From Bacteroidota bacterium (GTDB lineage: Bacteria; Bacteroidota; Bacteroidia; Chitinophagales; Saprospiraceae), in the NCBI GenBank assembly GCA_963169325.1, contig CAUJEY010000298.1, forward strand, positions 1-59,052: DNA of 59,052 bases. Reading direction: 5' to 3'. Shown piece by piece: positions 22,525-45,597 of this stretch. The notes below the pieces were generated by a model. It made no database searches, was not told the origin of the DNA, and worked only from the letters and a program-made list of their open reading frames with translations. Each line of letters starts with the position of its first letter. Positions within the stretch are counted from its first letter, which is position 1. The position numbers were made by a program, and so were the translations under genes.

Positions 22525-25500
22525 ATGACTGACATCAATCCTTTCCTCCGACAAAATCCTGTTGCTATTGTCGGCATGGCCTCCATCTTTGCGGACTCGG
22601 AAAACCTGGAAAAATATTGGGAAAACATCGTTCAGGGAATCGACTGTATCCGGGAGGTGCCACCCACACGGTGGAACGCCGACGACTACTACGATCCGGA
22701 TCCTTTTGCACCGGATAAAACCTACTGCAAAGTCGGGGGCTTCCTGCCGGAAATCGATTTTAATCCGATGGAGTTCGGGCTGCCACCCAATTTACTTGAA
22801 TCTACCGATGCATCCCAACTCCTGGGGTTGGCCGTCGCGCGCGATGCACTGCTCGATGCCGGGTATGCACCCGGCTCGGAGCGGTTCAATGCAACGATCC
22901 GCGAGCGGACAGGGGTCATCCTCGGCGTAGGCGGCGGTCAAAAAATGATCATCCCGCTCACGGCCCGGCTTCAATACCCTATCTGGCGCAAAGCACTGGA
23001 AGCGCAGGGTCTCCCGGAAGCACAAATTGAACAGATCATCGAACAAATCAAAGCGGCGTACATCCCCTGGACGGAGAACACCTTCCCCGGCCTGTTGGGC
23101 AACGTGATCGCCGGCCGAATCGCCAACCGGTTCGACCTGGGCGGCCTCAACAGCGTGGTGGACGCCGCCTGTGCAGCCTCGCTCAGCGCCACCAAAATGG
23201 CGATCAGCGAACTGATAGAAGGTAATTGTGACATGATGATCACCGGCGGCGTCGACACCGACAACTCGCCGTTTATGTATATGAGCTTTAGCAAAACCCC
23301 GGCATTCTCACGCAAAGGCAGCATCCGCCCCTTCGACCAGGATTCGGACGGTATGCTGATCGGCGAGGGCGTGGGGATGGTCGTCTGCAAACGGCTCGAC
23401 GACGCCCTGCGCGATGGCGACCGGATTTACGCCGTGATAAAAGGTATAGGCGGCTCCAGCGACGGCCGGTATAAAAGTATTTACGCCCCGCGTCCGCACG
23501 GACAAGCGCTGGCTATGCAACGCGCCTACGACGAGGCCGGGTTTGACCCCTCCACCGTCGGACTCGTGGAAGCGCACGGCACCGGTACCGGCGCAGGTGA
23601 TCCTTCAGAGGCCGAATCCATGAAAGGCGTTTTCGGCCGCAACAATCCTGCCTTGCACCATATCGCCCTCGGCAGCGTAAAATCACAAATCGGCCATACC
23701 AAAGCAGCAGCAGGTGTTGCCGGTTTGATAAAAACCGCTTTGGCACTGCACCATAAAATACTACCGGGAACCATCAACGTGACGCGTCCCAACGATGCGC
23801 TGCATATAGAAGACTCGCCGCTGTACATCAACGCCGAAACCCGCCCCTGGTTCCGGAAAGCCGCAAACACGCCACGCCGTGCCGGGGTCAGCGCTTTCGG
23901 ATTCGGAGGCGTCAACCTGCACATCGCCATGGAAGAGCAGGAGGACGAACACCTGATTGCCTATCGCCGGCACAACCTGCATCAACTGATTTTATTACAC
24001 GATGCCTCGGCGGAATCACTGTCGCAACGGTGCCAGGAACATTTGGCCCGATTGCAGGAGGATTCGGCCGCTACCTCGTATCATACCATGGCCAGGCAGT
24101 CGGCTAAAAACCCTATCCCGCCCATGCACCCACGCCTGGGTTTCGTCGCCTCCTCGGTGGCGGAGGCCCGGCAAAAACTGGAGATGTGTATCAAATTGCT
24201 GGCGGAAAAATCCGGGCAACAAGAGTGGGAACACCCCATCGCCGGAATTTGGTACCGGCATGCCGCCATGAACAACGATCAAAAAATCGTCGCGCTTTTT
24301 GCCGGCCAGGGTTCTCAATATGTCAATATGGGTCGGGAATTGGCCTGCAATTACCCATCCATCCGCGAGTCGTTCCGGCAAGTCAATCAGCTCTACGAAG
24401 CCGGTGGGCAGCCCCCCCTGACCGATGTGGTATATCCCATCCCGGTATTCAATGACGAAGACCGGAAAACACAACAACTGCGGTTAACCGAGACCCATTT
24501 CGCCCAACCGGCCATCGGCGCACTGAGCGCCGGCATGTACCGGTTGCTGGCAGAAGCGGGTTTTGCCGCCGATTTTTATGCCGGCCACAGCTATGGTGAA
24601 CTGACAGCGCTCTGGGCCGCCGGCGTACTCGACGACGCCACTTTTTATACCCTTTCCAAAGCCAGGGGAGAAGCCATGGCGACGCCGGGTGAAGGCGATA
24701 CCGGGACCATGTTGGCGGTAAAAGCCGACTTCGAAACCGTCCGGGCCAAAGTGGCGGTTCTTCCGGATATTCAGGTAGCCAATGTCAACTCGGGCACTCA
24801 GGTTATTCTGGGCGGCGCTACGGAAAGTCTTGCGCGATTGCAGGAGCAGTTGCAGGCAGAAGGTTTTATTGCTTCGCTTTTGCCGGTTTCGGCCGCCTTT
24901 CATACGCCGTTTGTCGCGCATGCACACCAGCCGTTTGCTGACGCTATCCAGTCCGCCAATTTCAATTTGGCCTCGAAAATGGTTTTTTCCAATACGACCG
25001 GTAACGCCTACCCGGCCGGCATTCGGGAAATGAAAGAAACCCTCACCGGTCACATGCTGAAGCCGGTGTTGTTTAAAGAGAAAATTGAAAACATCTACGC
25101 GGCCGGCGGCCGGATTTTTGTCGAATTCGGTTCGCGCAACATACTGACAAACCTCGTCCGGGAAATCCTGCACGGCAAACCGCATATCGCGATCGCCCTC
25201 AACCCGAATCCGCAAAAAGACAGCGATAAACAACTCCGGGAATCCGTGGCACAACTGACGGTTTTGGGTATTCAAATCCAGGATTTCGATCATTTCGCCC
25301 TTCCGGAACAAGAAAAACCGGTGACCAAAGGTATGAATGTGCGCATAAGCGGCTATAATTTCGTCTCTGATGCCACCAATAAGAAATATGAACAAGCCCT
25401 GAAACAAAACAGCGTCGCACTTTCCGTACCCGGTGAAATACGGGCCCAAACCGGAAATACTCAAACTGGAAACATGTTATCTGAAACCGCTTCCATATCC

Positions 25501-26874
25501 GGCGGAATACAGCCGGAACCGGAAGTAAACGATCCACAAATGTCTCATCAGGAAATAGAAATTTTACACAAAATCCAGGCGGAACTATCTCGCCTGAACG
25601 AACAGCAAAGTCAGGTAGTGGCCTTGTTGGAAAAATTATCTCAACCGGTCGCCCAGACGCTTCAACCCGTCGTACAGCCTGTAGCAGCGCCTGCGCCCCA
25701 AGCCATTCCGATGCCCGTCAGCAACGGCAGTGCCGGAAACGGCGCCCATTATCCCATGGCGCCCGCTGTCACTGCGCCGGCGCCGGCAGCACCGTCCATA
25801 ACAACAGCAGTAGTCGCCCAGGCGTCAGCACCCGCAGGTGTCGACTCTTCCAAAATCGAAAGCACGCTGCTGGCGGTCATTGCCGAAAAAACGGGCTACC
25901 CCGCCGAAATGCTGGAACTGGGCATGGATATGGAAGCCGACCTGGGCATCGACTCGATCAAACGGGTCGAAATCTTCGGCGCCATGACGGCTGCTCATCC
26001 GGAAATACAAGGTATCAACCCACAGGAACTCGCCGAATTGCGTACGCTGCAACAAATCGTGCAATACATCGCCGGAAAAGCCGGCGGAACGGCCCTTGCT
26101 GCCCCGCCGGCAGCTGCAATGGCCCCGGTTGCTCCGCCAACTCCAATGCCGCAGACTAATGGCGCCCCACACCCCGCGCCAATCACCCCTTTAGTTGCCC
26201 CGGCTGCTCCCACCCCGACCGGTGTGGATAAATCAAAAATTGAAAGTACCCTGCTGGCCGTTATTGCCGAAAAAACAGGCTACCCGGCCGAAATGCTGGA
26301 ACTGGGCATGGACATGGAAGCCGACCTGGGTATCGATTCGATCAAACGGGTCGAAATCTTCGGCGCCATGACAGCCGCACACCCGGAAATACAAGGCATC
26401 AACCCGCAAGAACTCGCTGAGTTGCGCACTTTGCAACAAATCGTGCAATACATCGCCGGAAAAGCCGGTGGAACTGCTCCCGCCGCCATGCCTGTTGCAG
26501 CTGCGCCAACGGCAGCGCCCCCACAGGCCAATGGCGCGCACGCCCCCACTCCACCCGCTCCGCCGGTTGCTACGGCCACCCCGGCGTCAAACGGTATCGA
26601 TCAATCGAAAATTGAACATACCCTCCTGACCGTCATTGCCGAAAAAACAGGCTACCCCGCTGAAATGCTGGAATTAGGCATGGATATGGAAGCCGACCTG
26701 GGCATCGACTCGATCAAACGGGTTGAAATCTTCGGCGCCATGACGGCCGCACATCCGCAAATACAGTGCATCAACCCGCAGGAACTCGCCGAATTGCGGA
26801 CGTTGCAGCAAATCGTGTTCTATATCCTGGGCAAGGCCGGGGCAGCGCCGGAGGTTGCTGTTGGAAAAAAGTAA
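22525..26874 (+). CDS. pfaA: PUFA synthase subunit PfaA-like: KS-AT-ACPx3
   Basis: A 1449-residue iterative synthase subunit of the Pfa (PUFA/secondary lipid) type. The N-terminal ketosynthase has Cys216 in VDAACAASLS, the His motif EAHGTGTGAGDP and GSVKSQIGHTKAAAG. A malonyl-type acyltransferase follows, with AGQGSQY and Ser689 in GHSYGE. After an Ala/Pro-rich linker come three almost identical acyl carrier domains with phosphopantetheine serines 1144, 1272 and 1396 in DLGIDSIKRVEI, the signature of PUFA synthase carriers. Family PfaA proteins continue into a KR (and often DH) domain. Here the frame stops after the third ACP, and those domains lie in the -1 frame right behind it (see the frameshift site). 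The reaction is chain start and elongation from malonyl-CoA in the cytoplasm. Confidence 0.93.
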   Translation: MTDINPFLRQNPVAIVGMASIFADSENLEKYWENIVQGIDCIREVPPTRWNADDYYDPDPFAPDKTYCKVGGFLPEIDFNPMEFGLPPNLLESTDASQLLGLAVARDALLDAGYAPGSERFNATIRERTGVILGVGGGQKMIIPLTARLQYPIWRKALEAQGLPEAQIEQIIEQIKAAYIPWTENTFPGLLGNVIAGRIANRFDLGGLNSVVDAACAASLSATKMAISELIEGNCDMMITGGVDTDNSPFMYMSFSKTPAFSRKGSIRPFDQDSDGMLIGEGVGMVVCKRLDDALRDGDRIYAVIKGIGGSSDGRYKSIYAPRPHGQALAMQRAYDEAGFDPSTVGLVEAHGTGTGAGDPSEAESMKGVFGRNNPALHHIALGSVKSQIGHTKAAAGVAGLIKTALALHHKILPGTINVTRPNDALHIEDSPLYINAETRPWFRKAANTPRRAGVSAFGFGGVNLHIAMEEQEDEHLIAYRRHNLHQLILLHDASAESLSQRCQEHLARLQEDSAATSYHTMARQSAKNPIPPMHPRLGFVASSVAEARQKLEMCIKLLAEKSGQQEWEHPIAGIWYRHAAMNNDQKIVALFAGQGSQYVNMGRELACNYPSIRESFRQVNQLYEAGGQPPLTDVVYPIPVFNDEDRKTQQLRLTETHFAQPAIGALSAGMYRLLAEAGFAADFYAGHSYGELTALWAAGVLDDATFYTLSKARGEAMATPGEGDTGTMLAVKADFETVRAKVAVLPDIQVANVNSGTQVILGGATESLARLQEQLQAEGFIASLLPVSAAFHTPFVAHAHQPFADAIQSANFNLASKMVFSNTTGNAYPAGIREMKETLTGHMLKPVLFKEKIENIYAAGGRIFVEFGSRNILTNLVREILHGKPHIAIALNPNPQKDSDKQLRESVAQLTVLGIQIQDFDHFALPEQEKPVTKGMNVRISGYNFVSDATNKKYEQALKQNSVALSVPGEIRAQTGNTQTGNMLSETASISGGIQPEPEVNDPQMSHQEIEILHKIQAELSRLNEQQSQVVALLEKLSQPVAQTLQPVVQPVAAPAPQAIPMPVSNGSAGNGAHYPMAPAVTAPAPAAPSITTAVVAQASAPAGVDSSKIESTLLAVIAEKTGYPAEMLELGMDMEADLGIDSIKRVEIFGAMTAAHPEIQGINPQELAELRTLQQIVQYIAGKAGGTALAAPPAAAMAPVAPPTPMPQTNGAPHPAPITPLVAPAAPTPTGVDKSKIESTLLAVIAEKTGYPAEMLELGMDMEADLGIDSIKRVEIFGAMTAAHPEIQGINPQELAELRTLQQIVQYIAGKAGGTAPAAMPVAAAPTAAPPQANGAHAPTPPAPPVATATPASNGIDQSKIEHTLLTVIAEKTGYPAEMLELGMDMEADLGIDSIKRVEIFGAMTAAHPQIQCINPQELAELRTLQQIVFYILGKAGAAPEVAVGKK

Positions 26875-26929
26875 CCGGCGGAACAATTGCGGTGCAGCCC
26901 GATGCCGGTTTTACAACATACCCAACCGG
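26850..26929 (+). promoter_or_regulatory. Candidate programmed -1 ribosomal frameshift site
   Basis: The zero frame reads GGA AAA AAG TAA, so A AAA AAG (26865-26871) has exactly the X XXY YYZ phasing of a -1 slippery heptamer, the same heptamer as in E. coli dnaX. A GGAGG at 26850-26854 lies 10 nt upstream, again as in dnaX. Downstream, AACCGGC (26873-26879) can pair with GCCGGTT (26904-26910), and CCGGTT can alternatively pair with AACCGG at 26924-26929. The first stem begins only 1 nt after the heptamer, closer than usual. A slip gives KVTGGT and continues into the KR-DH frame, producing a 2289-residue fusion. Alternatives are a missing A in the assembly, transcriptional slippage on the A6 run, or simple reinitiation. 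Confidence 0.65.
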
Positions 26930-29393
26930 GTCATACCCAAATGTTCCCCGTTCCACGGTCTCGCTTCGATACCTTCCGGAACCCGATCAAATAGAAACTG
27001 TAACAGATCCGTCGGCCGTCACGCTGATCACCAACGACGGTACAGCCCTGACAACGGCGCTGGCGCTGGCGCTGCAACAACGCGGCCACCAGGTGGTGGT
27101 GCTGTCCTTCGGCGAAGACCTCGTCCGAAAGGGCGCCCAGGTGTTGCCGGCAGGCGTTGTGGATATTTTGTTGCCGGATACGCAGGATGAAACGCTGGGG
27201 CAAACAATCCGCCAATTGCCTGGCCCGGTGGCCCAATTTATTTATCTGCATCCGCATTTGCGTTTTCCCTTAGGGCAACTCGGCATGCATTTTAACCGGG
27301 AAAAATCCCTGTTAAAGGCGGTGTTTTTGTTAGCCAAACACCTCAAAACGCCGCTGAATACGCCATCAGGCAAATACCGCCCGGCTTTTCTCACAGTATC
27401 CCGGCTCGATGGCGCCCTGGGCGTTCAAAACCCCGGCAATGTAGCCCCGTTGGGCGGCGGTCTGCCCGGCCTGACCAAATCGCTCCGCCTGGAATGGCCC
27501 GGCGTATTTTGCCGGGCCGTCGATATTGCCCCGGAATTACCGGTGGAGCGCGCTTCCCATCACATTGTGAGCGAACTTTTCGATGCGGACCAATGCCTCA
27601 CCGAAGCGGCCTGGAATGCAACCGGCCAGCGGCACACCCTCGTTGCCGAACCGTTTGAAACGGATGAAACACAGGTTTTACAATCAAAAATTAACCAGAA
27701 CAGCGTTTTTCTAGTCACCGGCGGCGCCCGCGGCGTTACGGCCGAATGCACGCGCCTGCTGGCCGCCCGGTTTAAATGTACCTTCGTTTTGCTGGGTCGC
27801 TCGGGTTTACCCACTGCGGAACCCGCATGGGCGCAAGGCGTCGACGATGCCGGCGAATTAAAACGCAAGGCCATGGAAGCCCTTCAGGCACAGGGCGAAA
27901 AACCGCTGCCCAAAACGGTGCAGCAGATGGCCGGCGCCGTTTTGGCGCAGCGTGAAATAGGGGCAAACCTGCAATATATGCGGGACCAGGGCGCTTCAGT
28001 GTATTATGAAGCGGCCGATGTGTCGGATGCCGCTGCGCTCAAAACCGTACTTGACCGGGTAACCTTAAAAACCGGAAAAATTACCGGCATCATCCATGGC
28101 GCCGGCGTTTTAGCCGACAAACGGATTGAAAACAAAACCGGGGCCGATTTCGACGCCGTTTTTGACGTAAAAATCAAAGGCCTGCTGGCCGTAACCCAGG
28201 CTGTTGACATTGAAGCAATCAAACATGTGGTGTTGTTTTCCTCCGTGGCCGGGTTTTATGGAAACGTTGGACAAACGGACTATGCGATCGCGAATGAAGC
28301 GTTGAACCGCATCGCGCACCTCTTCCGGAAAAATCACCCGTCCGTACATGTCGTGTCCATCAACTGGGGCGCCTGGGATGCCGGGATGGTGAGTCCGGAA
28401 TTAAAAAAGGTATTTGAAATGCACGGGGTATCGCTGGTGCCTTCGGCGGAAGGCCCCATTGCCCTGGCCGACCAACTGAGTACGGCCTTAGAACACCAGA
28501 CTCAAGTTATCCTCGGCGGCACACTGCCTATGGCCCACGCCGTAACCGATGGACCAATGACGACTTACCGGATACGCCGCCGGCTGCTGGAAACCGCCAA
28601 CCCTTTTCTGGCACACCACGTGATACAGGGCCATGCCGTTTTACCGATCATTAATGCGTCTACCTGGATGGTGCAGTCTGCGGCCGCGTTATACCCGGGA
28701 TTTTATGTTCAAAAGGCAGAAAAAGTAAAACTCTTCAAGGGTATCGTTTTCGATGGCAAACAGCCGGACGAATACCTGTTGACGGTAAAAGAACTGGAAA
28801 AAACGGAAAACCTGATTCGTATGCAGGTCAATATTACCAGCGATGCCGGGTTAAAACTTCCGGTGCAGCACTACCAGTCGGTACTCACCCTGGGGGCGCA
28901 ACCAAACGCCGGACCGCTGGAGCCGTTGCCGGATGTGCAGGATATTAAGCCGGTTTTGGCCGATGCTTCGGTGGTGTACACCGACGGCACACTTTTTCAC
29001 GGAACCGATTTTCAGGGCGTACGGCAAGTGCTGGAATTGAATGAATCCGGCACCCTGTTGCTTTGCGAACACCCCGGCATACCGCCGGAGCGTCAGGGCC
29101 AGTTTCCGGTGAAACAGGTCAATGCGTTTTTGACCGACGTGATGTACCAGGGTTTGCTGATCTGGGTACGCCGTTTTAAAGGCTGCGCTTGTCTGCCCTT
29201 GCGCACGGAATGGGTGGATATCTACGCGCCCCTGCCGTTCGGCCGGCCTTTTTATGTTTCTCTAAAAGTGGTGCAGTCGGATGATTTTGCCATGGAAGCG
29301 GATATAACGGCTTTCGATGCGGAAACCGGAATTGTTTATATGAAAAGTCATCGGGCCGGCGTCACGATCAGCCGCGATTTGAAATGGGATTAG
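26892..29393 (+). CDS. PUFA synthase KR-DH portion (C-terminal half of PfaA), in the -1 frame
   Basis: About 833 residues if it starts at GTG 26892, the only plausible in-frame start after the pfaA stop; any earlier start would translate an ACP out of frame. It is better read as the -1 frameshift continuation from 26871. It contains a structural pseudo-KR, then an NADPH-binding ketoreductase (VTGGARGVTAE; catalytic-type LFSSVAG and DYAIANEALN) that reduces the 3-keto group. A C-terminal hot-dog dehydratase-like module carries the PKS-type motif HVIQGHAVLP (HxxxGxxxxP, His near residue 576). KS-MAT-ACP-KR-DH is the layout of myxobacterial Pfa2. The next gene begins 2 nt after the stop. Confidence 0.88.
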   Translation: MQPDAGFTTYPTGSYPNVPRSTVSLRYLPEPDQIETVTDPSAVTLITNDGTALTTALALALQQRGHQVVVLSFGEDLVRKGAQVLPAGVVDILLPDTQDETLGQTIRQLPGPVAQFIYLHPHLRFPLGQLGMHFNREKSLLKAVFLLAKHLKTPLNTPSGKYRPAFLTVSRLDGALGVQNPGNVAPLGGGLPGLTKSLRLEWPGVFCRAVDIAPELPVERASHHIVSELFDADQCLTEAAWNATGQRHTLVAEPFETDETQVLQSKINQNSVFLVTGGARGVTAECTRLLAARFKCTFVLLGRSGLPTAEPAWAQGVDDAGELKRKAMEALQAQGEKPLPKTVQQMAGAVLAQREIGANLQYMRDQGASVYYEAADVSDAAALKTVLDRVTLKTGKITGIIHGAGVLADKRIENKTGADFDAVFDVKIKGLLAVTQAVDIEAIKHVVLFSSVAGFYGNVGQTDYAIANEALNRIAHLFRKNHPSVHVVSINWGAWDAGMVSPELKKVFEMHGVSLVPSAEGPIALADQLSTALEHQTQVILGGTLPMAHAVTDGPMTTYRIRRRLLETANPFLAHHVIQGHAVLPIINASTWMVQSAAALYPGFYVQKAEKVKLFKGIVFDGKQPDEYLLTVKELEKTENLIRMQVNITSDAGLKLPVQHYQSVLTLGAQPNAGPLEPLPDVQDIKPVLADASVVYTDGTLFHGTDFQGVRQVLELNESGTLLLCEHPGIPPERQGQFPVKQVNAFLTDVMYQGLLIWVRRFKGCACLPLRTEWVDIYAPLPFGRPFYVSLKVVQSDDFAMEADITAFDAETGIVYMKSHRAGVTISRDLKWD

Positions 29394-29395
29394 CC

Positions 29396-32300
29396 ATGAA
29401 TAAAAAAGAAAAAATAGCGGTGATCGGCATGGGCGGGCTTTTCCCGGGCTCCGAAACAGTGGAACAGTTCTGGGAAAACCTCACCGGCAATAAAGACCTG
29501 GTCACGAACGCCCGCTTCGAAGATTTCGGGGCGGACCCAGCGCTGTATTACCACGAAGAAAAAGGCAAATTAGACCACTGCTACGCCCTTCGGGGCGGTT
29601 TTATCCGCGATTTCAAGTTCGACGCCACGGGTTACCGGTTGGATGCCGGCCTCCTGAATTGTCAGGATAACCAGTTTAAATGGTCGCTCTACGTGGCCAA
29701 AGCAGCGCTTCAGGCCAGCGGGTATTACCAGCACCCAAGCCTCGACAAATGTGGCGTAATCATGGGTAACCTGTCTTTTCCCACGCGCTATTCCCGCCAG
29801 ATTTTATCCCCGATTTATGCCGGAATGGCCGGCGAAGTGTTGGGAAAACTCAGCGGACAAGAAGTGCCGGTACCGGCCGCCAACACCCATTATCCTGCCG
29901 ATATCCAAAATACGCTGCTGACCAATGCCCCGGCTGCGCTCATTGCCCAGGCGTTGGGACTCCGGGCCACGCATTATTCGCTCGATGCAGCCTGCGCTTC
30001 CAGCCTGTACGCCGTCAAATTAGCCTGCGACGAATTGCAATCCGGAAAAGCCGACCTCATGATGGCCGGCGCCGTGAGCGGCGCCGATCCGCTGTTTATC
30101 CACATGGGCTTTTCCTATTTTCATGCCTATGCGCGCCAAAACGAGGCGTCGTCGCCGATGGATATGCACTCCGGCGGACTTACCTCTGCCGAAGGCGCCG
30201 GCATGGTTGTTTTAAAACGACTTTCCGATGCCCGGCGCGACGGCGACCGTGTTCTGGCCGTCATTGAAGGCGTTGGATTGTCGAACGACGGCAAGGGAAA
30301 ATTTCTGCTCAGCCCCAATCCTAAAGGGCAGAAATTGGCTTTTGAACGCGCGTACAGCCAAACCGAATTGCGCCCGGAAGCGATGGATTACCTCGAATGC
30401 CACGCTACCGGCACCCCATTGGGCGACAAAACGGAGTTCAACAGCATCAGCGATTTTTTTGCCCGTGAAGGCGCGACGCCACCTTTGGTCGGTTCGGTCA
30501 AATCAAATATGGGGCACCTGCTGACGGCTGCCGGAATGGCCGGCATGATCAAAGTCATCCTGTCGATGCAACACCGGTTAATTCCGGCTACCATCAAAGT
30601 AACGGCGCCCCTGTATTCGGATAACGGCAAAATCGGCGCCGATCAGATCGTTTTGAAAAACCGGCCCTGGAAAAGCAAAGGGCCCATACCACACGCCGGG
30701 ATCAATGCTTTCGGGTTTGGCGGCACCAATGCCCACCTGATCCTGTCGGCCTTCGACGAGCAGGAAATGCCTGCGCCAATACCCCCAATTCCTGCCGCTC
30801 CGGAAAAAGTCGCGATCGTGGGTATGGATGTGCATTTCGGCGACTGCCAGGATATGGAGTCTTTTTACCTTTCCCTATTTACCGGTCGCCAACATTTCAA
30901 GGCATTGCCGGCAGAGCGCTGGAAGGGTTTGGAAAACCTGAACAACACACCCGATGGTCTTACTTTGCCCGATACGCAACAGTTACAGGGCGCCTGGCTG
31001 GAAGAATATGATCTGGATTTGCTGCGCTTTAAAATACAACCCCGCGAAGCGGAACGCCTGACGCGCCAACAAACCCTGATGTTGAAAGTAGCCTTCCGGG
31101 CCTTGCAGGATGCCGGAATGGAAACGGAACAGGGCGAGGCCGCCAATGTGGCCGTGATCACCGCCATGGAGTCCGAATTGGAAATCCACCACCGGATGGG
31201 ACGCTGGGATATGGCGTGGCAGGTAAATCAAGCCCTCACTCAAGCCGGCTTACACCTGTCGGATGCCAGCGAAGCCACCCTTGGCGGGGCCCTGAAGGAC
31301 GCTATTTTTCAGGCTTACGAAGATCATTCGCCCAGCGAACATACCGGATTTATCGGCAATATCATCTCCAGCCGGATTGCCGCGCTGATGAATTTTACGG
31401 GGCCGGCGTTTACCGTATCCTCCAATGAAAACGCCGTTTACAAGGCGCTTGAAATAGCCCGAAACCTGCTGGCCACACAAGAAGTGGATGCCGTGGTATT
31501 GGGCGCCATCGACCTGAGCGGAAGTTTGGAAAGCGTGTTGAGCAGGCAGGCATTGGCACCTGTTCAGGAAGGCCCGGCCTCCTTGAGCTGGAATGCATCG
31601 ACAACCGGCTGGCTGATCGGCGAAGGCGCCGGGGCTATTGTTTTGAAACGCTCTGCGGATGTAAAACACGACCGCGTGTATGCGTATATCGACGACCTGG
31701 CAATCGTACAATCCGAGTACACGGATTTGCGGGGCAAAGCCGGCGCCGGCGCCGTGGAAAATGCCGCGCGCACCGTACTGGCGCGCCGTCAATTAAATCC
31801 CTCGGATATCGGCTTGCTGGAGGCATCCGCCAGCGGTATCCCAACGGAAGACCGTGCCGAAACAGAAGGACTCCACCGGGCGTATCAGTCAGATAAAGCA
31901 CCGATGACCTGCGCAGTTGGCAGCGCCAAAGCCCATGTCGGGCACTGTTTTTCGGCTTCTGGCATCGTTTCCATCGTCAAAACGGCTTTATCGCTTTATC
32001 ATCGGTTTATTCCCGGCGTTCCCGCCTGGGAAAAATCGCGTTGGCCGGAATTACTGGAAAAAACGCCTTTTTATATACCCGAAGATTCCCGCCCCTGGAT
32101 TCCGGAAAAAGGACAATCGGTACTCCGGGCAGCCATCAGCGGTCTGGCTTCCGATGGAACCGCCGCACACCTTTTACTGTCGGAAGGGCGCCACCCCGAT
32201 CCTGCAAAGGCGGGGTCGTATTTGTTAAAAGGCGGAGAACGTCTTTTCCCGCTTCGGGCAGTTACTGCCGGAGCGTTGACTGAACAATTGCTGGCCATAC

Positions 32301-36434: not shown

Positions 36435-36461
36435 GAGTTGCTCCAATGACCTGATGACCTG

Positions 36462-36703: not shown

Positions 36704-36743
36704 CTACCTAATAACCAATGTTGTACAGTAAAAAAACAATCCA

Positions 36744-38390
36744 ATGACGGCCACCGCTACCTTGCCTGCAGAATCCAATAGCCTTATCTACCCGCACCCG
36801 CCGGGCGCCGCCAAGTGGTTTGGGCACCCCAAATCGCTGGCATTCAGCCCTGAGGGCATTCGCCGTGTCCTGGAAGACTTGGGCTCCCGGTGTTTTATTG
36901 TTCGGGATGAAAAGGGCGCCGTTGGTGTTGCCGCCGGCATGGGTACCGATAATCCGGCCGAACTGACACAAATGGAACTAATCGCCGCCCTCCCGGCTTT
37001 TCTGCCGGAGCAATTGGGCGACCCCGCGTTCCGGCAAACCTATAATTTGAAATACAATTATATGGCCGGCGCCATGGCCAACGGTATAGCCTCCGCCGAA
37101 TTAGTTATTGCGCTGGGCAAGGCCGGCATGCTGGCGTCTTTTGGCGCCGGCGGTTTGGTACCGGCCCGGATTGAGGCGGCTATCGACGCGATTCAGGCTG
37201 CTTTGCCGGACGGGCCTTATGCGGTCAACCTCATCCACAGCCCCAGCGAGGAAGCCTTGGAGCGGCATGGCGTGGAGTTGTTTTTGAAAAAAGGCGTGCG
37301 GGTGATCGAGGCATCGGCATTTCTGGCACTGACACCCCACGTGGTGCGGTACCGGGTGGCCGGGTTGCGGCAAAATGCCGATGGTTCGATTCATATCGGG
37401 CACCGGATCATCGCCAAAGTATCCCGGCTGGAAGTGGCGGCACATTTCATGCAGCCCGCTCCGGAGTCCTTCCTAAAACAATTGCTTGAAGCTGGCATGA
37501 TCACCGCCGAACAAGCGCGGCTGGCTGCCCAAGTACCCATGGCCGACGATATTACCGTGGAGGCAGATTCGGGCGGACACACCGACAACCGCTCGCTGGT
37601 TTGTTTGTTGCCGGCCGTGGCGGCCCTGCGCGATCAGTTTCAGCAACAATACAACTACCCCCAACCAGTGCGGGTGGGCGCTGCGGGCGGCATCGGCACC
37701 CCGGAAGCCACGTTGGGTGCATTCGCGATGGGCGCCGCGTTTGTGGTTACGGGCTCCATCAACCAGTCCTGCCGCGAATCGGGCTCCTCCGATCATGTCC
37801 GTAAAGTGCTGGCCCAGGCAGACATGACCGACACGATCATGGCGCCGGCTGCCGATATGTTCGAAATGGGGGTGAAATTGCAGGTATTGAAAAAAGGTAC
37901 CTTGTTTGGGTTGCGGGCCCAAAAGTTGCTCGACCTGTATTTAGCCCACGACAGCTGGGCGGAAATCCCGGAAAAAGACCGGCAAAACCTCGAGAAAAAC
38001 CTCTTCCGGGGGCCCTTCGATCAAATTTGGCAACACTGCGTGGCATTTTTTCAGGAGCGCGATCCGGAGCAGATTATCCGGGCAGAAAACAATCCCAAAC
38101 GCAAGATGGCCCTGGTGTTCCGCTGGTATCTGGGGCTGTCGTCGGCCTGGGCAAACCGCGGCGAACCCGGCCGCGAACTGGACTACCAGATTTGGTGCGG
38201 CCCGGCCATGGGCGCATTCAACCAATGGGTAAAAGGCTCCCACCTGGAAAACTGGGAAAACCGCCGGGTGGCCGACGTGGCATTGCAATTGCTGCATGGC
38301 GCAGCCTATTTGAGTCGCTTGCAGTATTTGGTGTTGCATGGCGTACAGGCAGATGCGACGTTGAAACGGGTTAAAGCGAGTAGTTTGTAA
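36744..38390 (+). CDS. pfaD: PUFA synthase enoyl reductase, PfaD-like
   Basis: A 548-residue FMN-dependent enoyl reductase of the PfaD / nitropropane-dioxygenase-like TIM-barrel family. It reduces the trans-2-enoyl intermediate in rounds where no double bond is kept. Typical segments are YNYMAGAMANGIASAELVIALGKAGMLASFGAGG in two blocks, YAVNLIHSPSEEALE and the phosphate-binding stretch GAAGGIGTPEATLGAFAMGA. Length matches the family (530-560). It follows the pfaC gene, with the palindromic element between. The same strand suggests one operon, although the element could attenuate or process the mRNA. Its stop is 5 nt from the convergent PPTase stop. Confidence 0.93.
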   Translation: MTATATLPAESNSLIYPHPPGAAKWFGHPKSLAFSPEGIRRVLEDLGSRCFIVRDEKGAVGVAAGMGTDNPAELTQMELIAALPAFLPEQLGDPAFRQTYNLKYNYMAGAMANGIASAELVIALGKAGMLASFGAGGLVPARIEAAIDAIQAALPDGPYAVNLIHSPSEEALERHGVELFLKKGVRVIEASAFLALTPHVVRYRVAGLRQNADGSIHIGHRIIAKVSRLEVAAHFMQPAPESFLKQLLEAGMITAEQARLAAQVPMADDITVEADSGGHTDNRSLVCLLPAVAALRDQFQQQYNYPQPVRVGAAGGIGTPEATLGAFAMGAAFVVTGSINQSCRESGSSDHVRKVLAQADMTDTIMAPAADMFEMGVKLQVLKKGTLFGLRAQKLLDLYLAHDSWAEIPEKDRQNLEKNLFRGPFDQIWQHCVAFFQERDPEQIIRAENNPKRKMALVFRWYLGLSSAWANRGEPGRELDYQIWCGPAMGAFNQWVKGSHLENWENRRVADVALQLLHGAAYLSRLQYLVLHGVQADATLKRVKASSL

Positions 38391-38395
38391 GACCT

Positions 38396-39160
38396 TTACG
38401 CGGTTACGCAAGTGCTACCCAATTGATAAAAGACAAAGCGCCAATGCTCTTTTTTTATCGCCACGGCTGCCGCATATCCCGGACAAGCCGTAAAATCCCA
38501 AACATTCCAATCCGTTTGCTCAAACTGCGCCCCTGGAGATTCTGCCTGCCACACCCGGCCGGCCGGTAAGCGGCTCACATCGATCCCGTTCAGCGGAAGC
38601 GAAAAACCGCCACCTACCGCCTTGATATAGGCTTCCTTACGCGTCCAGAATTGAAAAAAGCGCGCGCGCCGGCGTTCCGGCGGAAGTGCGCGCAACACCT
38701 CCATTTCATCGGTCGAAAATACCACGGCGCCGGCCTGCAACAGGTCGGTAACGGCATCCGTATGTTGCACGTCGATGCCAATATCCACACCGCGTACAAA
38801 GGCAAACAAAGCAACCCCATGGGAATGCGATATATTGAACTGCAAGGCATCTTGCCCGGCAGAAGCCAGGAGTGCCGGTTTGCCAAACGAATTATAGGAA
38901 AAACGAATCGCTTCCGGCAGGCAATTCTGGTACCGGCTCAGAATTTCACGCAGTAAGCCGCGCCCCGCGATGTAGTGTTCCCGGTGCTGAGGAAAATGAA
39001 ACCGCGTTGCCCGGGCCATTTCATCGGCAGATAACATTTGGGTAAAACGCTCCTGTTGACGTGCTGTAACCTGCAACGACGCCTGCCAGATATGCACGTC
39101 GGTTGACGGCAAATACCATTCGGAAGGCGGCGCAGACCAGGTGGGATGAAGTTCGAACAT
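38396..39160 (-). CDS. Sfp-type 4'-phosphopantetheinyl transferase (PfaE-like)
   Basis: A 254-residue enzyme that converts apo-ACP to holo-ACP by transferring phosphopantetheine from CoA, which is essential for the three ACP domains of the synthase. The metal/CoA motif is VDIGIDVQ (Asp126, Asp130), where Gln132 stands at the place of the usual second acidic residue. The second core motif is WTRKEAYIKAVGGG at about 172-185, with Glu176. The gene is convergent with the pfaD gene and divergent from the catalase-related gene. Placement next to pfaD matches PfaE in other PUFA clusters, but the reversed strand implies separate transcription. Confidence 0.9.
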   Translation of the reverse strand: MFELHPTWSAPPSEWYLPSTDVHIWQASLQVTARQQERFTQMLSADEMARATRFHFPQHREHYIAGRGLLREILSRYQNCLPEAIRFSYNSFGKPALLASAGQDALQFNISHSHGVALFAFVRGVDIGIDVQHTDAVTDLLQAGAVVFSTDEMEVLRALPPERRRARFFQFWTRKEAYIKAVGGGFSLPLNGIDVSRLPAGRVWQAESPGAQFEQTDWNVWDFTACPGYAAAVAIKKEHWRFVFYQLGSTCVTA

Positions 39161-39344: not shown

Positions 39345-40349
39345 ATGGAAAAACTTGAGCAAAACGAGCCTGAATTATATCGTAAAATGGAACGACTGTT
39401 CCGTGAAAAAGCGGAAAAGGAAGGGCAGCCGCCCCGCAGGTGTGCACACACCGTCAGTATGGGGCTTTTGAAGGGTGAATTTACTATCGAGCCTGACTTG
39501 CCCGACACTTTGAAAGTCGGCCTGTTTAAACATCCCGGAACGTTTCAGGCTTTGATACGCACGTCACATTCCCGAATAGAAGGCGAGGTTAATAAAATAA
39601 AAGACGGACGTGGTTTTGCGATTAAACTGCTCGATGTTCCGGGTAAAAAATGTACGCAGGACGCGCGATTCCAATCGACACAGGATTTTTTGTTGTTGAG
39701 TTTTCCAACGATTGCTATCGGAACGATTAAAGAGTTTTTTATTTTCCGGTATTACCAGCTCAAATGGCCCCCCGCTTTATTTTTACTTAAATCGCTGCTC
39801 GACGGGCGGATTGCAAAACTCGTCCGTATGCTCCGGGCTATACACCACGATTCCAGTCCGCTCGATATCCGGTACTGGAGTGTGACGCCATACCGGTACG
39901 GCGAGCGGGCGGTAAAGTTTGGGCTCGTTCCAACTTCCGAATACAAAAGCACCTTGCCGGACGTGCTGACGGATCAATATCTGGTTGATAATATGGCGCA
40001 GCATCTGGCAAGCCATGATGCGAGTTTTGACTTTATGGTTCAATTTTTTAAAGATCAGAAAACCACCCCGATCGAGAACATGGGTCGTGAATGGAAAGAA
40101 GAGGACGCCCCGTTTGTCAAAGTTGCCACGCTCCGCATTCCGAAACAGGACTTTCAACAGCCGGAAAGGTATTCGCTGGCAGAAGAATTATCCTATTCCC
40201 CGGCGCATGCGCTGGAAGAGCACCGGCCGCTCGGCGGGATTAACCGTACCCGGATTTTTGTGTATGAACAACTGTGGAAATTCCGGATGGGCGCCCGGAA
40301 GAAAGAACGGTATGAAGCGGATATGGAATTATTCCGGACGCTGGCGTAG
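39345..40349 (+). CDS. Catalase-related haem protein, allene-oxide-synthase/y4iL-like family
   Basis: A 334-residue protein, far shorter than catalase (about 480 or more) but close to the catalase-related group that includes coral allene oxide synthase and y4iL/SrpA-like proteins. The distal-site sequence is RRCAHTVSMGLLKGEF with His35. The region GRGFAIKLLDVPG matches the catalase core. The C-terminal NRTRIFVY places Arg303 and Tyr307 as the R-x-x-x-Y proximal haem ligand. The distal Asn of catalases seems to be replaced (LLLSFPTIA). Coral relatives turn lipoxygenase-made fatty-acid hydroperoxides into allene oxides. With lipoxygenases and a PUFA synthase next door I infer a hydroperoxide-converting role. 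A plain peroxide-scavenging function is the alternative. No signal peptide was seen. Confidence 0.75.
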   Translation: MEKLEQNEPELYRKMERLFREKAEKEGQPPRRCAHTVSMGLLKGEFTIEPDLPDTLKVGLFKHPGTFQALIRTSHSRIEGEVNKIKDGRGFAIKLLDVPGKKCTQDARFQSTQDFLLLSFPTIAIGTIKEFFIFRYYQLKWPPALFLLKSLLDGRIAKLVRMLRAIHHDSSPLDIRYWSVTPYRYGERAVKFGLVPTSEYKSTLPDVLTDQYLVDNMAQHLASHDASFDFMVQFFKDQKTTPIENMGREWKEEDAPFVKVATLRIPKQDFQQPERYSLAEELSYSPAHALEEHRPLGGINRTRIFVYEQLWKFRMGARKKERYEADMELFRTLA

Positions 40350-40447: not shown

Positions 40448-42328
40448 ATGGAATCAAAATCGAGTCAACTATTCGGTGCCGGAGAAAAACAGGATAGCAG
40501 TTTCGCTTCTGTAGTCGGTATGATCCGGCCGTTATTGTCCCAGTTATTCGGCCAGCTTAGTCAGGCGGACTGGGAAAAACTGGATACTTACCTGGAAGAG
40601 GTGGATCTGCCGGGCGGGTATTATTTATTTCGCAAGGGCGACCGGGGTGACGCTATGTACATTGTCATCAACGGGCGCCTGCAAGTTCGGCTGGAGAACG
40701 ATCAGCATATCGAGGTAATCAACGAGATCGGGCACGGGGAAACGGTAGGCGAAATGGCGCTGATTACCGGGGAGAACCGCTCCGCCAGTATCTACGCCAT
40801 CCGGGATTGCCATTTAGTACGCATCTCCAAGGACGCGTTTCACAAATTTTTCACCCTTTTCCCTGCCGTTGGGCTCAATTTGGCCAAACTGATCATTCAA
40901 CGATTTACGCAAAAACAAGCCAACCGGCGGCTTCGGGCTATCTCCAACATTGCCATTGTTCCCTTGCACCGAAGCATTGACATGGATGGGTTTGTCCGTC
41001 AATTGCAGGAAGTTTTTATAAAAAAAGGTAAAAACGTAGCGCTGCTTTCCAGTGCGTCCGTCGATGCAGTTTTGGGTAAAGGGGCGGCACAGGCATCCTT
41101 GACACAAGTGGACGAAAATAAAAAACTATCCTTGCTGCTGGACAAGGCGGAGACGGCACACGATCTTGTTTTTTATCTGCCCGACCAGGGCGCTACCGAA
41201 TGGACCAATCGTTGCATCCGGCAGGCCGATGAAATCCTGCTTGTCGCCGACGCCACCTCCTCACCGGCGCTCACCCAGTTGGAACAAACCGTTTTAACGG
41301 GTGAAAGCAAACTGTCGACAGCCCGGCAGACCCTGGTTTTATTGCAACCCGGCGGCGATGTACTGCCCACCGGTACTGCCCGCTGGCTCAATACCCGCAA
41401 AGTCGGTTTTCATGTGCATATCCGGGCGGATAAAGCGGAACACGATTTTACCCGCCTGACCCGGTATTTGACGGATAGCCTGACCGGATTGGTGCTCGCC
41501 GGCGGCGGCGCTAAAGGGTTTGCGCATATCGGCGTGTTGCGCGCGCTGCAGGAAGCCGATATTCAGGTCGACTTTGTCGGCGGCACCAGTATGGGCGCCA
41601 TGATGGGCGGTATCATCGCTTTCGACTGGGACTACGAACGCGTGAACGACATTACCCGGGAGATAGCTTTTAGCCCGCTGAAAAGTGATTTTAACTTCCT
41701 GCCGGTAGTTTCGCTGTTCAAAGGCAAGATACTGGATCGCGTACTTCAAAAATATTACCTGGCGCACGATATTGAAGACTGCATACTGCCTTTCTATTGT
41801 GTGTCCAGCAACATGACCAATGCCCGCCCCGTGGTTCATCGCAGGGGCAATATGTTCCGCGCCATCCGCGCCAGCGGCGCCATTCCCGCAGTTGTTCCTC
41901 CGGTGGTGGAAAACAATTGCCTGCTAATCGACGGCGGAATTTTTAACAACTTCCCTACCGACGTCATGGTCGAACAGGGCGCCAGGTTCATCATCGGAGT
42001 CGATTTTTCGATGGAGCAAGACCGGGAAATTAAGTACCGCGAGATTCCATCCAACTGGCAGGTACTGCGGACACAGTGGTTAGGCGGCGAACACAAACAG
42101 GACCTGCCTACCCTGCTGGGCACTATAATCCAGTCCACCACGCTCTACAGCGATTACATGCAAAAACAAAACAGCGACAAAACGGATATTTATATCAACC
42201 CGGATGTCGGCCAGTTTAGCATGCTGGACTGGACGGCTTATGAAAAAATTGTCCAGAAAGGCTACGAAACAGCCAAACGGGTACTACAGGAGTCGGAAGA
42301 CAAAATAGAGGGGTATAATAATTTATAG
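40448..42328 (+). CDS. Cyclic-nucleotide-binding patatin-like phospholipase (NTE family)
   Basis: A 626-residue protein. Residues about 40-150 form a cNMP-binding domain (GGYYLFRKGDRGDAMYIV, GETVGEMALITGENRSASI). A middle segment of about 170-335 is typical of bacterial NTE relatives. From about 340 a patatin domain follows with the oxyanion motif LAGGGAKGFAH, nucleophile Ser381 in GTSMG and catalytic Asp495 in DGG. Family members hydrolyse phospholipids or lysophospholipids, and NTE proteins are fed by regulatory nucleotide-type domains. It lies between the catalase-related and lipoxygenase genes on the same strand, so I infer it releases PUFA from membrane lipid for oxygenation. Direct cAMP binding is not shown. 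Confidence 0.88.
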   Translation: MESKSSQLFGAGEKQDSSFASVVGMIRPLLSQLFGQLSQADWEKLDTYLEEVDLPGGYYLFRKGDRGDAMYIVINGRLQVRLENDQHIEVINEIGHGETVGEMALITGENRSASIYAIRDCHLVRISKDAFHKFFTLFPAVGLNLAKLIIQRFTQKQANRRLRAISNIAIVPLHRSIDMDGFVRQLQEVFIKKGKNVALLSSASVDAVLGKGAAQASLTQVDENKKLSLLLDKAETAHDLVFYLPDQGATEWTNRCIRQADEILLVADATSSPALTQLEQTVLTGESKLSTARQTLVLLQPGGDVLPTGTARWLNTRKVGFHVHIRADKAEHDFTRLTRYLTDSLTGLVLAGGGAKGFAHIGVLRALQEADIQVDFVGGTSMGAMMGGIIAFDWDYERVNDITREIAFSPLKSDFNFLPVVSLFKGKILDRVLQKYYLAHDIEDCILPFYCVSSNMTNARPVVHRRGNMFRAIRASGAIPAVVPPVVENNCLLIDGGIFNNFPTDVMVEQGARFIIGVDFSMEQDREIKYREIPSNWQVLRTQWLGGEHKQDLPTLLGTIIQSTTLYSDYMQKQNSDKTDIYINPDVGQFSMLDWTAYEKIVQKGYETAKRVLQESEDKIEGYNNL

Positions 42329-42394: not shown

Positions 42395-43918
42395 ATGAAC
42401 CTGCATACCTCCATTTTTTTTCGAATGCTTAAATTGGGTATCGAGTCGTATAAACCCACGGCGCCGCACGAGATACCCATGCCCTCCGCGTCGCACGGGC
42501 AAGACCATAAGACCATCCGTATTCCATACCTGGGGCCGGATGGGAAAGTACTGGCGAAAGATGAAGACGAAGCGGTCCGCCCAAAAATTCTCAAAATGAT
42601 TATCCGGCTCAATAACCGGCTCAATCCGGTTGTAGACGCCGACAAGCCCTGGGCGTCCGTAGAAAGTGGCAAGCAAAACATCCATTCTATTTTCGGCAAC
42701 TATTTTCCGAAAAGCCGGGTCGACTGGCAAGGTTGCGATCCGACAAGCGACCAGGTACTTCGCTGGTGGGTATTCAGTGGTTTCGGCGCCCTGGAACTGC
42801 ATCGACTGGACGAGCAAACGGCTCAATCGGAACAGGTCAACGGCCAAACGCCTACTTTTGTATCGTCGTATGAGTTTCTGAAAGACCTGCCGGTACGCCC
42901 GGGATTAGCCGGCTACGGTGGCGCCGTTTATCTGGACCGACAAGGCAATATCCTCAAAATGAAACTTCGCGGGAAAGATGTTTTCCCCACCGACGGGAAA
43001 GCCTGGGAAGCGGCCAAATTTGCTTACCGGTCCACCAGTATGGTTTGGGTTACGTTATATGACCACCTGTTTTTTTCGCATTACTCGGTCTCCAATTCAG
43101 GCGTATTAGCCACGATCAACAACCTTCCGATCGACAATCCATTGCGGCTGTTGCTCAAACCTTTTCTTTTTCGAACCGCTGCAATCAACAACGGCGGAGC
43201 CGATTCGCTCCTGCCCAAAGGCTCGTCCTTCTTCCGGGCTTCCGGTTTTACCTGGGAGGGCATGGAAGAGGCGTACAGCCTGATGCTCAACAGGGTAGCT
43301 TTGAAACCGCTGCCCGATCTGCTTCGGGAACGGGGTATTGACCGAGCAAGCCTGAGCGCGCTCCCGGAAGACATTTTCCCGTTTGGGCGCGACGGAGAAC
43401 TGTACTGGAATTCTCTAAACGGCTTTAGCGCTGATATTCTGCACCACGCGCCTGCTTTCCGAAATATCGAAAAAAACGACGCGGTGAAAGCCTGGTGGGA
43501 ACAAATGAACGGCACACTTCGCTTTTCACCCAGCGACCTCTCTACCGATCGTATGGCGACCTTTTTAACGCAGTTCTTTTATACCGTATCTGCTTTTCAC
43601 AGCTGGGTCGGCCACGTGACGCCTTACGTGAAAGACCCTTCCATAGCCGCCGGAAAACTGTTTCCGGATGCCGTTATGGCCAATCAGCAAAACAGTGCAG
43701 AGTTGGGCGTCATTGCCTCCATTACCGGCTTGCCCACCCCCTCTCTGCTGGGCGACTTTTCGCACCTGATGCCCGACGATTATTCCCGGGGAAGTTTGAA
43801 CCGTTTGCACGAAAACCTGCTTCAGGTCGGCCAGGAAATTCAACAACGGAATGCCCGGCGGGATATAGCGCTGCGCGCTTTTTTGCCGGAAGAACTGAAT
43901 TTGAGCGTGGCGATTTGA
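42395..43918 (+). CDS. Lipoxygenase-family protein 1
   Basis: A 507-residue protein that I assign to the lipoxygenases, non-haem iron dioxygenases which add O2 to 1,4-pentadiene fatty acids. The central helix reads DHLFFSHYSV with His224 and His229 (H-x4-H). It is followed by ATINNLPIDNPLRLLLKPFLFRT, split here as ATINNLPIDNP and LRLLLKPFLFRT, aligning with the family HP..KLL.PH.R block. The third ligand is His402 in SAFHSWVGH, and the chain ends in Ile507, whose carboxylate is the classic last ligand. The usual Asn four residues after the third His is Gly406, with His407 next. No PLAT domain and no signal peptide were seen, as in bacterial mini-lipoxygenases. It faces a second lipoxygenase gene tail to tail, 5 nt apart. 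Confidence 0.8.
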   Translation: MNLHTSIFFRMLKLGIESYKPTAPHEIPMPSASHGQDHKTIRIPYLGPDGKVLAKDEDEAVRPKILKMIIRLNNRLNPVVDADKPWASVESGKQNIHSIFGNYFPKSRVDWQGCDPTSDQVLRWWVFSGFGALELHRLDEQTAQSEQVNGQTPTFVSSYEFLKDLPVRPGLAGYGGAVYLDRQGNILKMKLRGKDVFPTDGKAWEAAKFAYRSTSMVWVTLYDHLFFSHYSVSNSGVLATINNLPIDNPLRLLLKPFLFRTAAINNGGADSLLPKGSSFFRASGFTWEGMEEAYSLMLNRVALKPLPDLLRERGIDRASLSALPEDIFPFGRDGELYWNSLNGFSADILHHAPAFRNIEKNDAVKAWWEQMNGTLRFSPSDLSTDRMATFLTQFFYTVSAFHSWVGHVTPYVKDPSIAAGKLFPDAVMANQQNSAELGVIASITGLPTPSLLGDFSHLMPDDYSRGSLNRLHENLLQVGQEIQQRNARRDIALRAFLPEELNLSVAI

Positions 43919-43923: not shown

Positions 43924-45597
43924 TTAGGCACTAACCGAATTTGCCACCCTTCCCGGCCGGGAAATCCCGTAAGGTTTCGGCCGCTCCCGGTCTCTTGATT
44001 CGATCAATGCCTCCAGTTGTTTCAGTCTCTGCTGAAAGTCCCGGACAACCGCTAACGCCTCCGGATCGCGGTGATAATCTTCCAGATGACGCCCGAGGGT
44101 GGTGTATTGCATCGAAAAAGCATAAGTGGCCTTCATGATCGTATAAATATCATCCAGCGTGGGCATGGCCCGAAGCAGGTCGACTTCCTGTACTTCTTCC
44201 TGTGCTGCAGGTACCGGTATATACAGTACAGGAGGCATGGCCGGCGGATAAGCGATATATTCGTACTGCACTGCACCGACAAACGTATGCTGAATTACGC
44301 TGAACAGGATGGCTGTTAAAACGGCTTGAAGATTTTCCGTGTTATCAACCGGCAGAATTTTTCCCGGGCCAAAATAGTTGCTCAGTTCTGCCACCCAGGC
44401 CGCCAACTCGTGGTCGGCCCGCAGGTCGTCCGGCTGCCGGTAATACAGGTTCAGGTAATTCCGGACATAGCTTTCCAGTGCCTGCCAAAGTAATAACCCG
44501 TCGTCGCGGTATAGGTAGCCCGGAAGTTCGGCGGTGCCGTTTCGCTCGAGTAAGGCGGGCAGGGCAGTTCGGTTGAGGGTCCAGAGGACTTCCCCTTTTT
44601 CTAACAGGCGAAGCGTTCCTGCCCGGCCGGCCGAGAACAATTTAGCAAAAATCCCGTCTTCGCCCAGCAGTATCTGGTTGGAGTTGTGGTTCGCATTCAG
44701 GCAGAAATGGAAATGCGGCGCCAGGAGTTTCCGTACCGGGTGGCGATCCGACAGGTTTCGCGCGGCAGCAATCCAAAAGTTTTCGAGGAATAAATGCGTC
44801 CACAACAGATGGGTTACAGATTCGTGCACGAACAAATCCGCACTGTTAAAAAACATCTTGGCAAGCGTCCAGCCCGGGCTGCCGTCGGGGTAAAACCACT
44901 TTGGGCCCTGTTCCCGGCTATACAATTGAATACCTAAGGGATGCAGCACCTCTTGCCGGCACTCAAAAAAAGCAATCGCCGGCGCCAGATAACGGCCTTC
45001 CACGGTGGGTATATCTTGCAGCAATTCGTGGTAATTGACAACGTATAAGGGGTATTCCGGGCGGCGCGCCAGCATCATACTGTCGTACACGGCCTGGTCC
45101 AAACCCTGGTTTAACAGCGCAGCAGGGTCTTCGCAACGGCTAATCCAAACGGGGTTAATCCCTTGCAGGCGCTGACGCGCAAACTCCAGGTCATCTTTCC
45201 AGAAGCGCATAATCCGCGGCGCCCCCAAAATCCGGTACAGTCGCTCCAGTTGCCGGAAGGATTTGAGCGGCCCGGTCTTGCGCCCGTTCATTTTTAGCGC
45301 AGCAATTATTAATAATTTGGGAATCCGGATACCCGCAGGGTAACGTTCTTTTGCCGGCAATTCCCGGACGGTCCTTAAGCACAAGGGGCTGTCGAGTCGG
45401 AGTTTTTCGACCAGGCGGGCAGGTTCATACAATGCCCGGTCCTGGTTTATGCCCCGGAGTCGTTCCGGATCGGTATCGTGTTGCGGCAACGCGGTGGCGA
45501 CAAACGTCGGTTTATGAAACAAGCGGCTGTGCCGGAACAACCAAACCCAGATGCCGGCTATTTTTAATAAAAGGGAAGAAAACAAGAATGCCGCCAT
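43924..45597 (-). CDS. Lipoxygenase-family protein 2, membrane-anchored
   Basis: A 557-residue protein from the ATG at 45597; a TTG 17 codons upstream is the other option. The N-terminus MAAFLFSSLLLKIAGIWVWLF is a membrane anchor or signal. The lipoxygenase core is clearer than in its neighbour: GWTLAKMFFNSADLFVHE, split as GWTLAKMFF and NSADLFVHE, then THLLWTHL with His263 and His268 (H-x4-H). HPVRKLLAPHF and the third ligand His437 in QHTFVGAVQYEY follow. The position four after that His, normally Asn or His, is Gly441. The C-terminus RVANSVSA resembles the family ending PNSxSI but closes with Ala rather than Ile; a C-terminal carboxylate is still available. It is convergent with lipoxygenase 1 and divergent from a lipoprotein gene. 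Confidence 0.87.
   Translation of the reverse strand: MAAFLFSSLLLKIAGIWVWLFRHSRLFHKPTFVATALPQHDTDPERLRGINQDRALYEPARLVEKLRLDSPLCLRTVRELPAKERYPAGIRIPKLLIIAALKMNGRKTGPLKSFRQLERLYRILGAPRIMRFWKDDLEFARQRLQGINPVWISRCEDPAALLNQGLDQAVYDSMMLARRPEYPLYVVNYHELLQDIPTVEGRYLAPAIAFFECRQEVLHPLGIQLYSREQGPKWFYPDGSPGWTLAKMFFNSADLFVHESVTHLLWTHLFLENFWIAAARNLSDRHPVRKLLAPHFHFCLNANHNSNQILLGEDGIFAKLFSAGRAGTLRLLEKGEVLWTLNRTALPALLERNGTAELPGYLYRDDGLLLWQALESYVRNYLNLYYRQPDDLRADHELAAWVAELSNYFGPGKILPVDNTENLQAVLTAILFSVIQHTFVGAVQYEYIAYPPAMPPVLYIPVPAAQEEVQEVDLLRAMPTLDDIYTIMKATYAFSMQYTTLGRHLEDYHRDPEALAVVRDFQQRLKQLEALIESRDRERPKPYGISRPGRVANSVSA

Follow-up and report, generated by a model that had tools for sequence, protein, structure and literature searches.

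A bacterial polyunsaturated fatty acid synthase locus adjoining genes for a catalase-related protein, a patatin and two lipoxygenase-family proteins

We analyzed a stretch of 59,052 nucleotides (assembly GCA_963169325.1, contig CAUJEY010000298.1; in the following called the window) from a Bacteroidota bacterium of the family Saprospiraceae. In this window, the genes of a polyunsaturated fatty acid (PUFA) synthase are followed directly by genes for a phosphopantetheinyl transferase (PPTase), a catalase-related haem protein (CAT), a patatin (PAT) and two lipoxygenase (LOX)-family proteins, LOX1 and LOX2. The locus may represent a PUFA release-and-peroxidation module, in which the product of the synthase would be released, peroxidized by a LOX and converted as a hydroperoxide by CAT, a reading to which we assign a probability of about 0.4. 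All the genes named in a previous sequence-only reading of this DNA were recovered by domain matches and motifs, and the absence of any unrelated gene within the run was confirmed. That reading had not mentioned that the PPTase and LOX2 genes lie on the opposite strand. The genes are as follows:

22525..26874, plus strand: PfaA, with ketosynthase (KS), acyltransferase (AT) and three acyl carrier protein (ACP) domains (Pfam domains; LGIDSI three times, GHSYG, EAHGTGT)
26766..29393, plus strand: subunit with ketoreductase (KR) and dehydratase (DH) domains, apart from PfaA (KR 123.8 bits; PKS_DH_N weak)
29384..36415, plus strand: PfaC, with KS, chain length factor (CLF), AT, DH and DH domains (two KS and two FabA stretches, weak AT; DAACAS, GFSMG)
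36744..38390, plus strand: PfaD enoyl reductase (TIGR02814, 685 bits)
38396..39160, minus strand: HetI-like PPTase, convergent with PfaD (PF01648, 58.9 bits; HetI model 202 bits, below its cut-off)
39345..40349, plus strand: CAT, catalase-related haem protein (Pfam catalase E 8.6e-5, below cut-off; own family profile and fold match)
40448..42328, plus strand: PAT, with cyclic nucleotide (cNMP)-binding, NTE P-loop-like and patatin domains (GGGAKG, GTSMG, DGG; GEMALITGENRSA)
42395..43918, plus strand: LOX1, LOX-fold protein (Pfam lipoxygenase 25.3 bits, cut-off 23.6)
43924..45597, minus strand: LOX2, lipoxygenase (Pfam lipoxygenase 164.8 bits)

The synthase (22525-38390) is thus followed in order by PPTase, CAT, PAT, LOX1 and LOX2, with the synthase, CAT, PAT and LOX1 on the plus strand. 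The gaps measure 184 bp between PPTase and CAT, 98 bp between CAT and PAT, 66 bp between PAT and LOX1, and 5 bp between the convergent LOX1 and LOX2 genes. By strand and short gaps, only CAT-PAT-LOX1 looks like a single operon.

Judged from its domains, the synthase is complete, with all main domains and motifs and two spots that are weak in Pfam. These are the DH of the KR-DH subunit (PKS_DH_N 19.7 bits, below cut-off) and the AT of PfaC, which scores 21.6 bits against a cut-off of 32.7, yet has the GFSMG motif. Each of the three ACPs of PfaA carries LGIDSI, and for the KR-DH subunit a GTG start at 26892, 17 nt past the end of PfaA, is likelier. The layout of KS-AT-tandem ACP, separate KR, KS-CLF-AT-DH-DH and PfaD is that of the Type D clusters. 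In the Type D cluster of Aureispira marina, which belongs to the same family of Bacteroidota as the window organism, the KR is separate from PfaA and the AT is fused to PfaC, and E. coli makes arachidonate when it carries these pfa genes (PMC4882568, PMC5067506; here and below, statements on cited papers refer to the sections drawn on). Because the layout matches that of this proven arachidonate maker, the product of the synthase is likely a PUFA, and by analogy most likely a C20 PUFA. The separate KR, the AT on PfaC and the presence of PfaD and a PPTase are common to both clusters; A. marina has four ACPs versus three here, and the sections drawn on do not mention LOX, CAT or patatin genes linked to its cluster (PMC4882568, PMC5067506), unlike the adjoining genes in the window.

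PAT has intact catalytic motifs (GGGxxG, GxSxG, DGG) together with an intact cyclic-nucleotide cassette, which bears out its previous assignment as a patatin. In CAT, the haem-binding residues R32, H35, R72, R303, Y307 and R314 are kept. LOX2 has its first in-frame ATG at 45597 (557 aa), while a TTG at 45648 is also open (574-aa reading), and its N-terminus is hydrophobic. It aligns with CspLOX2 and animal LOX across 400-520 residues, and the nearest solved structure is that of Cyanothece CspLOX2, a stand-alone bacterial LOX (E 1.8e-49). LOX proteins bind iron through three fixed His, a fourth ligand that is His, Asn or Ser, and the carboxylate of a C-terminal residue that is usually Ile and occasionally Val (PMC13059375). 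The three fixed His are kept in LOX2 as H275, H280 and H454 (574-aa numbering). Of 26 LOX-like rows, 25 span this region and one is partial; 8 of the 25 have the complete set. The structural model of LOX1 indicates that this protein has the lipoxygenase fold, since its best Foldseek matches are lipoxygenases (E ~1e-15; pLDDT 73, with the first 80 residues poor); sequence matches to lipoxygenases start at E 4.4e-10, and its C-terminal residue is Ile. The two proteins were rejected as a recent tandem duplicate, as they stand apart on the LOX tree, although both branches are long there, the joining of LOX1 was flagged as possibly false and the group of LOX2 has support of 86/61.

From this gene content we infer the catalytic steps, their order and the link between synthase and oxidation. 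The Type D synthase would provide a C20-type, arachidonate-like PUFA, as suggested by the Aureispira analogy, that would be placed in membrane lipid. Its release, or that of an oxidized chain, would fall to PAT, possibly under cyclic-nucleotide control, and LOX2, probably anchored in the membrane, would add O2 to yield a hydroperoxide. CAT may then convert the hydroperoxide at its Tyr-ligated haem by peroxidase, epoxyalcohol or lyase chemistry, with allene oxide synthesis not assured, and LOX1 would be a non-canonical partner of LOX fold. Coupling of the synthase half and the oxidation half is plausible, because both are uncommon and directly abut. To our knowledge, a native substrate has been established for few bacterial lipoxygenases. 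With PUFA synthesis and an oxygenase encoded in one locus, the question of their role would become a direct test, and bacteria would possibly have a counterpart to the eicosanoid production of animals. That the locus goes as far as a self-contained, eicosanoid-like signaling system, with de novo arachidonate-type fat, gated phospholipase release, a membrane-anchored LOX and conversion by CAT, with other LOX-fold proteins of the genus coupled to kinase-AAA-GAF proteins, appears unlikely.

Several observations weigh against the release-and-peroxidation module. A single genome underlies the proposed coupling, and the metal site is altered in LOX1 as well as in LOX2. In LOX1, the first iron His is replaced by Val, leaving two of the three fixed His, and the fourth ligand position is Gly; LOX1 is thereby ruled out as a canonical LOX, so that of the two lipoxygenases proposed previously only LOX2 keeps the three fixed His. 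LOX2 itself differs from CspLOX2, its closest relative among solved structures, by Gly458 at the fourth ligand position in place of His, Asn or Ser, and by a C-terminal Ala, which has the carboxylate but is an unusual residue. Moreover, LOX2 is on the strand opposite to CAT-PAT-LOX1. CAT groups with the mini-catalases, outside the allene oxide synthase (AOS) subfamily, and the neighbors of its near relatives are other oxidases, not LOX. Homologs of PAT with 41-44% identity were found in four congeners, and the respective stretches gave no CAT or LOX match.

Counterparts of the adjacency were also not found in the related genomes compared. Counting the own genome each time, 32 of the 199 genomes from the family and 3 of the 42 from the genus carry a pfaD gene above cut-off, and 7 of the 395 from the phylum have a Pfam lipoxygenase match above cut-off. 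We compared 33 other pfaD loci, 31 from other family genomes over cut-off (PfaD 55-66% identical) and two from congeners (84 and 87%). Downstream of PfaD, where at least 8 kb are visible in 20 loci and at least 2 kb in 27, a match to CAT or LOX is absent from all of them (0/33). The two congeners keep the convergent PPTase in the same place, with the CAT-PAT-LOX module missing. The contig of the nearest non-congeneric pfaD locus (G631; 66%) stops 303 bp past PfaD, and its genome, 77% complete, gave no LOX or CAT match in the family-wide searches. On the downstream side of these 33 loci, the adjacency is therefore seen in this one genome so far, an outcome that the sequence-only reading had named as counting against it, and the conserved linkage for which it had proposed a search was not found in them. 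In the open-licence literature, we found nothing on a bacterial LOX with a PUFA synthase cluster, nor on LOX-catalase-like operons or LOX iron-ligand pseudoenzymes, which does not show that such reports are absent from print. For the proposed route of making, releasing, peroxidizing and converting PUFA, the Aureispira-type synthase, the intact PAT, the three-His LOX2 and the recurrence of LOX with catalase-related genes in bacteria speak in favor, whereas a full set of fixed His in LOX1, the AOS identity of CAT and conservation of the adjacency did not hold.

The sequence-only reading had compared CAT with the catalase-related coral AOS, which acts on lipoxygenase hydroperoxides. In coral AOS, Arg64, Arg102 and Arg360 bind the haem, His67 is the distal His and Tyr353 the proximal Tyr, with Thr66 and Asn137 also on the distal side (PMC5617202). 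The three Arg, the distal His and the proximal Tyr are matched in CAT by R32, R72, R314, H35 and Y307, while Ala34 stands at the position of Thr66 and Leu118 at that of Asn137; Asn137 is non-essential for the chemistry of AOS (PMC5617202). A mixed profile of 21 sequences gave coral AOS as the best match with 283 bits. A profile of CAT and its five nearest relatives scored 51 bits to the mini-catalase 3e4w, 30 to catalase and only 17 to coral AOS; because of this low score of the CAT clade, we take the 283 bits as due to the LOX-linked rows of the mixed profile. CAT was consequently rejected as a coral-type AOS, given 17 bits versus 51 and the absence of the distal Thr and Asn. The matches of the CAT model (pLDDT 83) by fold are catalases and the Mycobacterium avium 33-kDa catalase-related protein (3e4w/3e4y), the closest solved relative of the CAT clade in sequence and fold, which is 22% identical with CAT. 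We know of no LOX context for this protein.

Among the near relatives of CAT that were scanned (L110, L112, L113, L114), DyP-like genes adjoin L112, L113 and L114, and a RoxA-like cytochrome gene adjoins L110. At L112:4113-9239, the gene after the CAT relative encodes a kinase-AAA-GAF-guanylate cyclase protein of 1709 aa, an architecture also found beside the further LOX-fold family described below. In distant relatives (L115:7258-10542, L116:7527-10685), the catalase-related domain is fused to LodA-type lysine-oxidase domains. At L118:5730-17722, a catalase-related domain shares one protein with a domain resembling flavin amine oxidases and a region that weakly matches carrier proteins; the gene adjoins that of a 2195-aa protein with AMP-binding, P450, cytochrome b5 and condensation domains, an unusual synthetase.

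These findings bear on other explanations of the locus. The genes could protect a PUFA-rich membrane, with PAT clearing oxidized chains, CAT destroying peroxides and the LOX-fold proteins binding or sensing oxidized lipid or acting weakly. The eroded metal sites of LOX1 and LOX2, the grouping of CAT with mini-catalases and the DyP-like, RoxA-like and LodA associations of its relatives are consistent with such a role; we consider it somewhat improbable, as LOX2 retains all three His within a domain of overall LOX type, and genes of this kind are missing near the other PUFA loci. The two halves could also be unrelated modules that became neighbors by chance or recent insertion, the synthase serving membrane lipid and CAT-PAT-LOX acting on outside or other substrates. 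The restriction of the adjacency to a single genome argues for this, as do the two pfaD congeners that keep the convergent PPTase without the module, the PAT homologs without LOX, and pairs of LOX and catalase-related genes in Bacteroidota genomes in which no pfaD was found (for example G236, G458). Against it, two rare gene sets abut, and a span of 20 kb makes up 0.25% of the 8.07-Mb genome; the window had, however, been selected because it was unusual. We regard this explanation as equally improbable.

An assembly artefact that joined two organisms or loci is highly improbable. The source genome (8.07 Mb, 96.7% complete) consists of 349 contigs, the window being contig 298, with 1.88% contamination, and the GC content is 0.54-0.58 in the synthase and slightly lower, 0.51-0.52, from CAT to LOX2. 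On the 5′ side of the locus lie genes for gyrA, an SbcC-like ATPase and a subtilase, and homologs of the upstream S8, gyrA, TPR, LysE and GT2 genes are also close to the PUFA locus of a congener (G031), though on its opposite side; therefore the contig looks chromosomal. From these shared neighbors, the PfaD identity of 84-87% to the congeners and the same PPTase, we rejected a chimeric contig. An Rfam scan of the window gave no match at gathering score. Promoter-like matches in the window equaled those in shuffles (7 versus 7.4), and terminator-like matches numbered 19 versus 12.7 (sd 3.6); neither was used as evidence.

Beyond the window, LOX and catalase-related genes were found to recur as neighbors in bacteria. 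We compared 24 distinct LOX loci, gathered by four different searches and not a random sample; the window belongs to this set. In 12 loci, a gene for a catalase-related protein lies no more than 1 kb from the LOX gene. The window does not count among these 12, as PAT intervenes. L086 and L126 represent one contig, as do L087 and L130, and each was counted once. An unrelated open reading frame (ORF), L129:879-2231, was excluded from the LOX counts; the adjacency table was built with it in the seed, and it went unmatched in L129 once the profile was built from the other sequences. For the LOX-linked catalase rows, Thr66/His67 comparisons were not used, as the columns are shifted by two. Fusions of catalase-related and LOX domains are known in corals and Acaryochloris (PMC11719350, PMC5617202). 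They likewise couple a catalase-related haem protein to a lipoxygenase, whereas the genes are separate in the window, its CAT lacks Thr66 and Asn137 and belongs to another subfamily, and PUFA synthases, unlike here, are not mentioned in the sections drawn on (PMC5617202, PMC11719350).

In nine pairs from the phylum of the window (L093, L094, L120, L121, L122, L136, L138, L139, L140), two ligands are missing throughout (nine of nine): the first iron His of the LOX-like protein, which measures 721-778 aa, and the proximal Tyr of its partner. This paired loss of a LOX iron ligand and the haem-ligand Tyr in several Bacteroidota lineages raises the question of the role of the variant pair. The remaining three of the 12 are L129, the Aureispira pair L130 and the Myxococcales pair L127. 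At L129, 797 bp separate the LOX gene from its partner, which is encoded on the other strand; its genome gave no pfaD match. In Aureispira sp. Cli_1 (L130:8882-14060), a catalase-like protein without its N-terminal half stands with a LOX without the first His; the row continues with an alpha/beta hydrolase and a D-arabinono-lactone-oxidase-like flavoprotein, and pfaD lies elsewhere in the same genome. Overall, pfaD over cut-off is present in four of eight genomes with LOX2-like genes, including a Nostoc match with internal stops, which could be a heterocyst-glycolipid gene.

A metagenome-assembled genome of Myxococcales has a LOX with the ligands H,H,H,N, directly followed by an AOS-like catalase-related gene (L127:9941-12852), whose product keeps Asn137 and R-x-x-x-Y. 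PfaD and a KS-AT-ACP-KR-DH protein are encoded on another contig (L143). Both this genome and the window thus pair a LOX with a catalase-related gene and have a PUFA synthase; unlike in the window, the synthase is on a different contig, the LOX ligands are H,H,H,N and the partner has Asn137. As a candidate for a bacterial route from PUFA to oxylipins, L127/L143 is the cleaner one.

A further LOX-fold family comprises seven members of 472-551 aa: L174:9275-10801 (contig C317 of the own genome), L175:9063-10628, L176:8898-10463, L177:8953-10605, L178:657-2183, L179:8741-10354 and L137:11715-13130. The first iron His is missing where it was read, and the one member scanned had no Pfam match. Directly after six of the seven genes lies one for a Ser/Thr kinase-AAA_16-GAF protein of 1707-1793 aa; at L178, the contig stops 216 aa into the next ORF. 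Sensing by the LOX fold is possibly coupled to signaling in this family. The kinase-AAA_16-GAF proteins end in a nucleotide cyclase in L174 and L137 and in a histidine kinase in L175, L176, L177 and L179.

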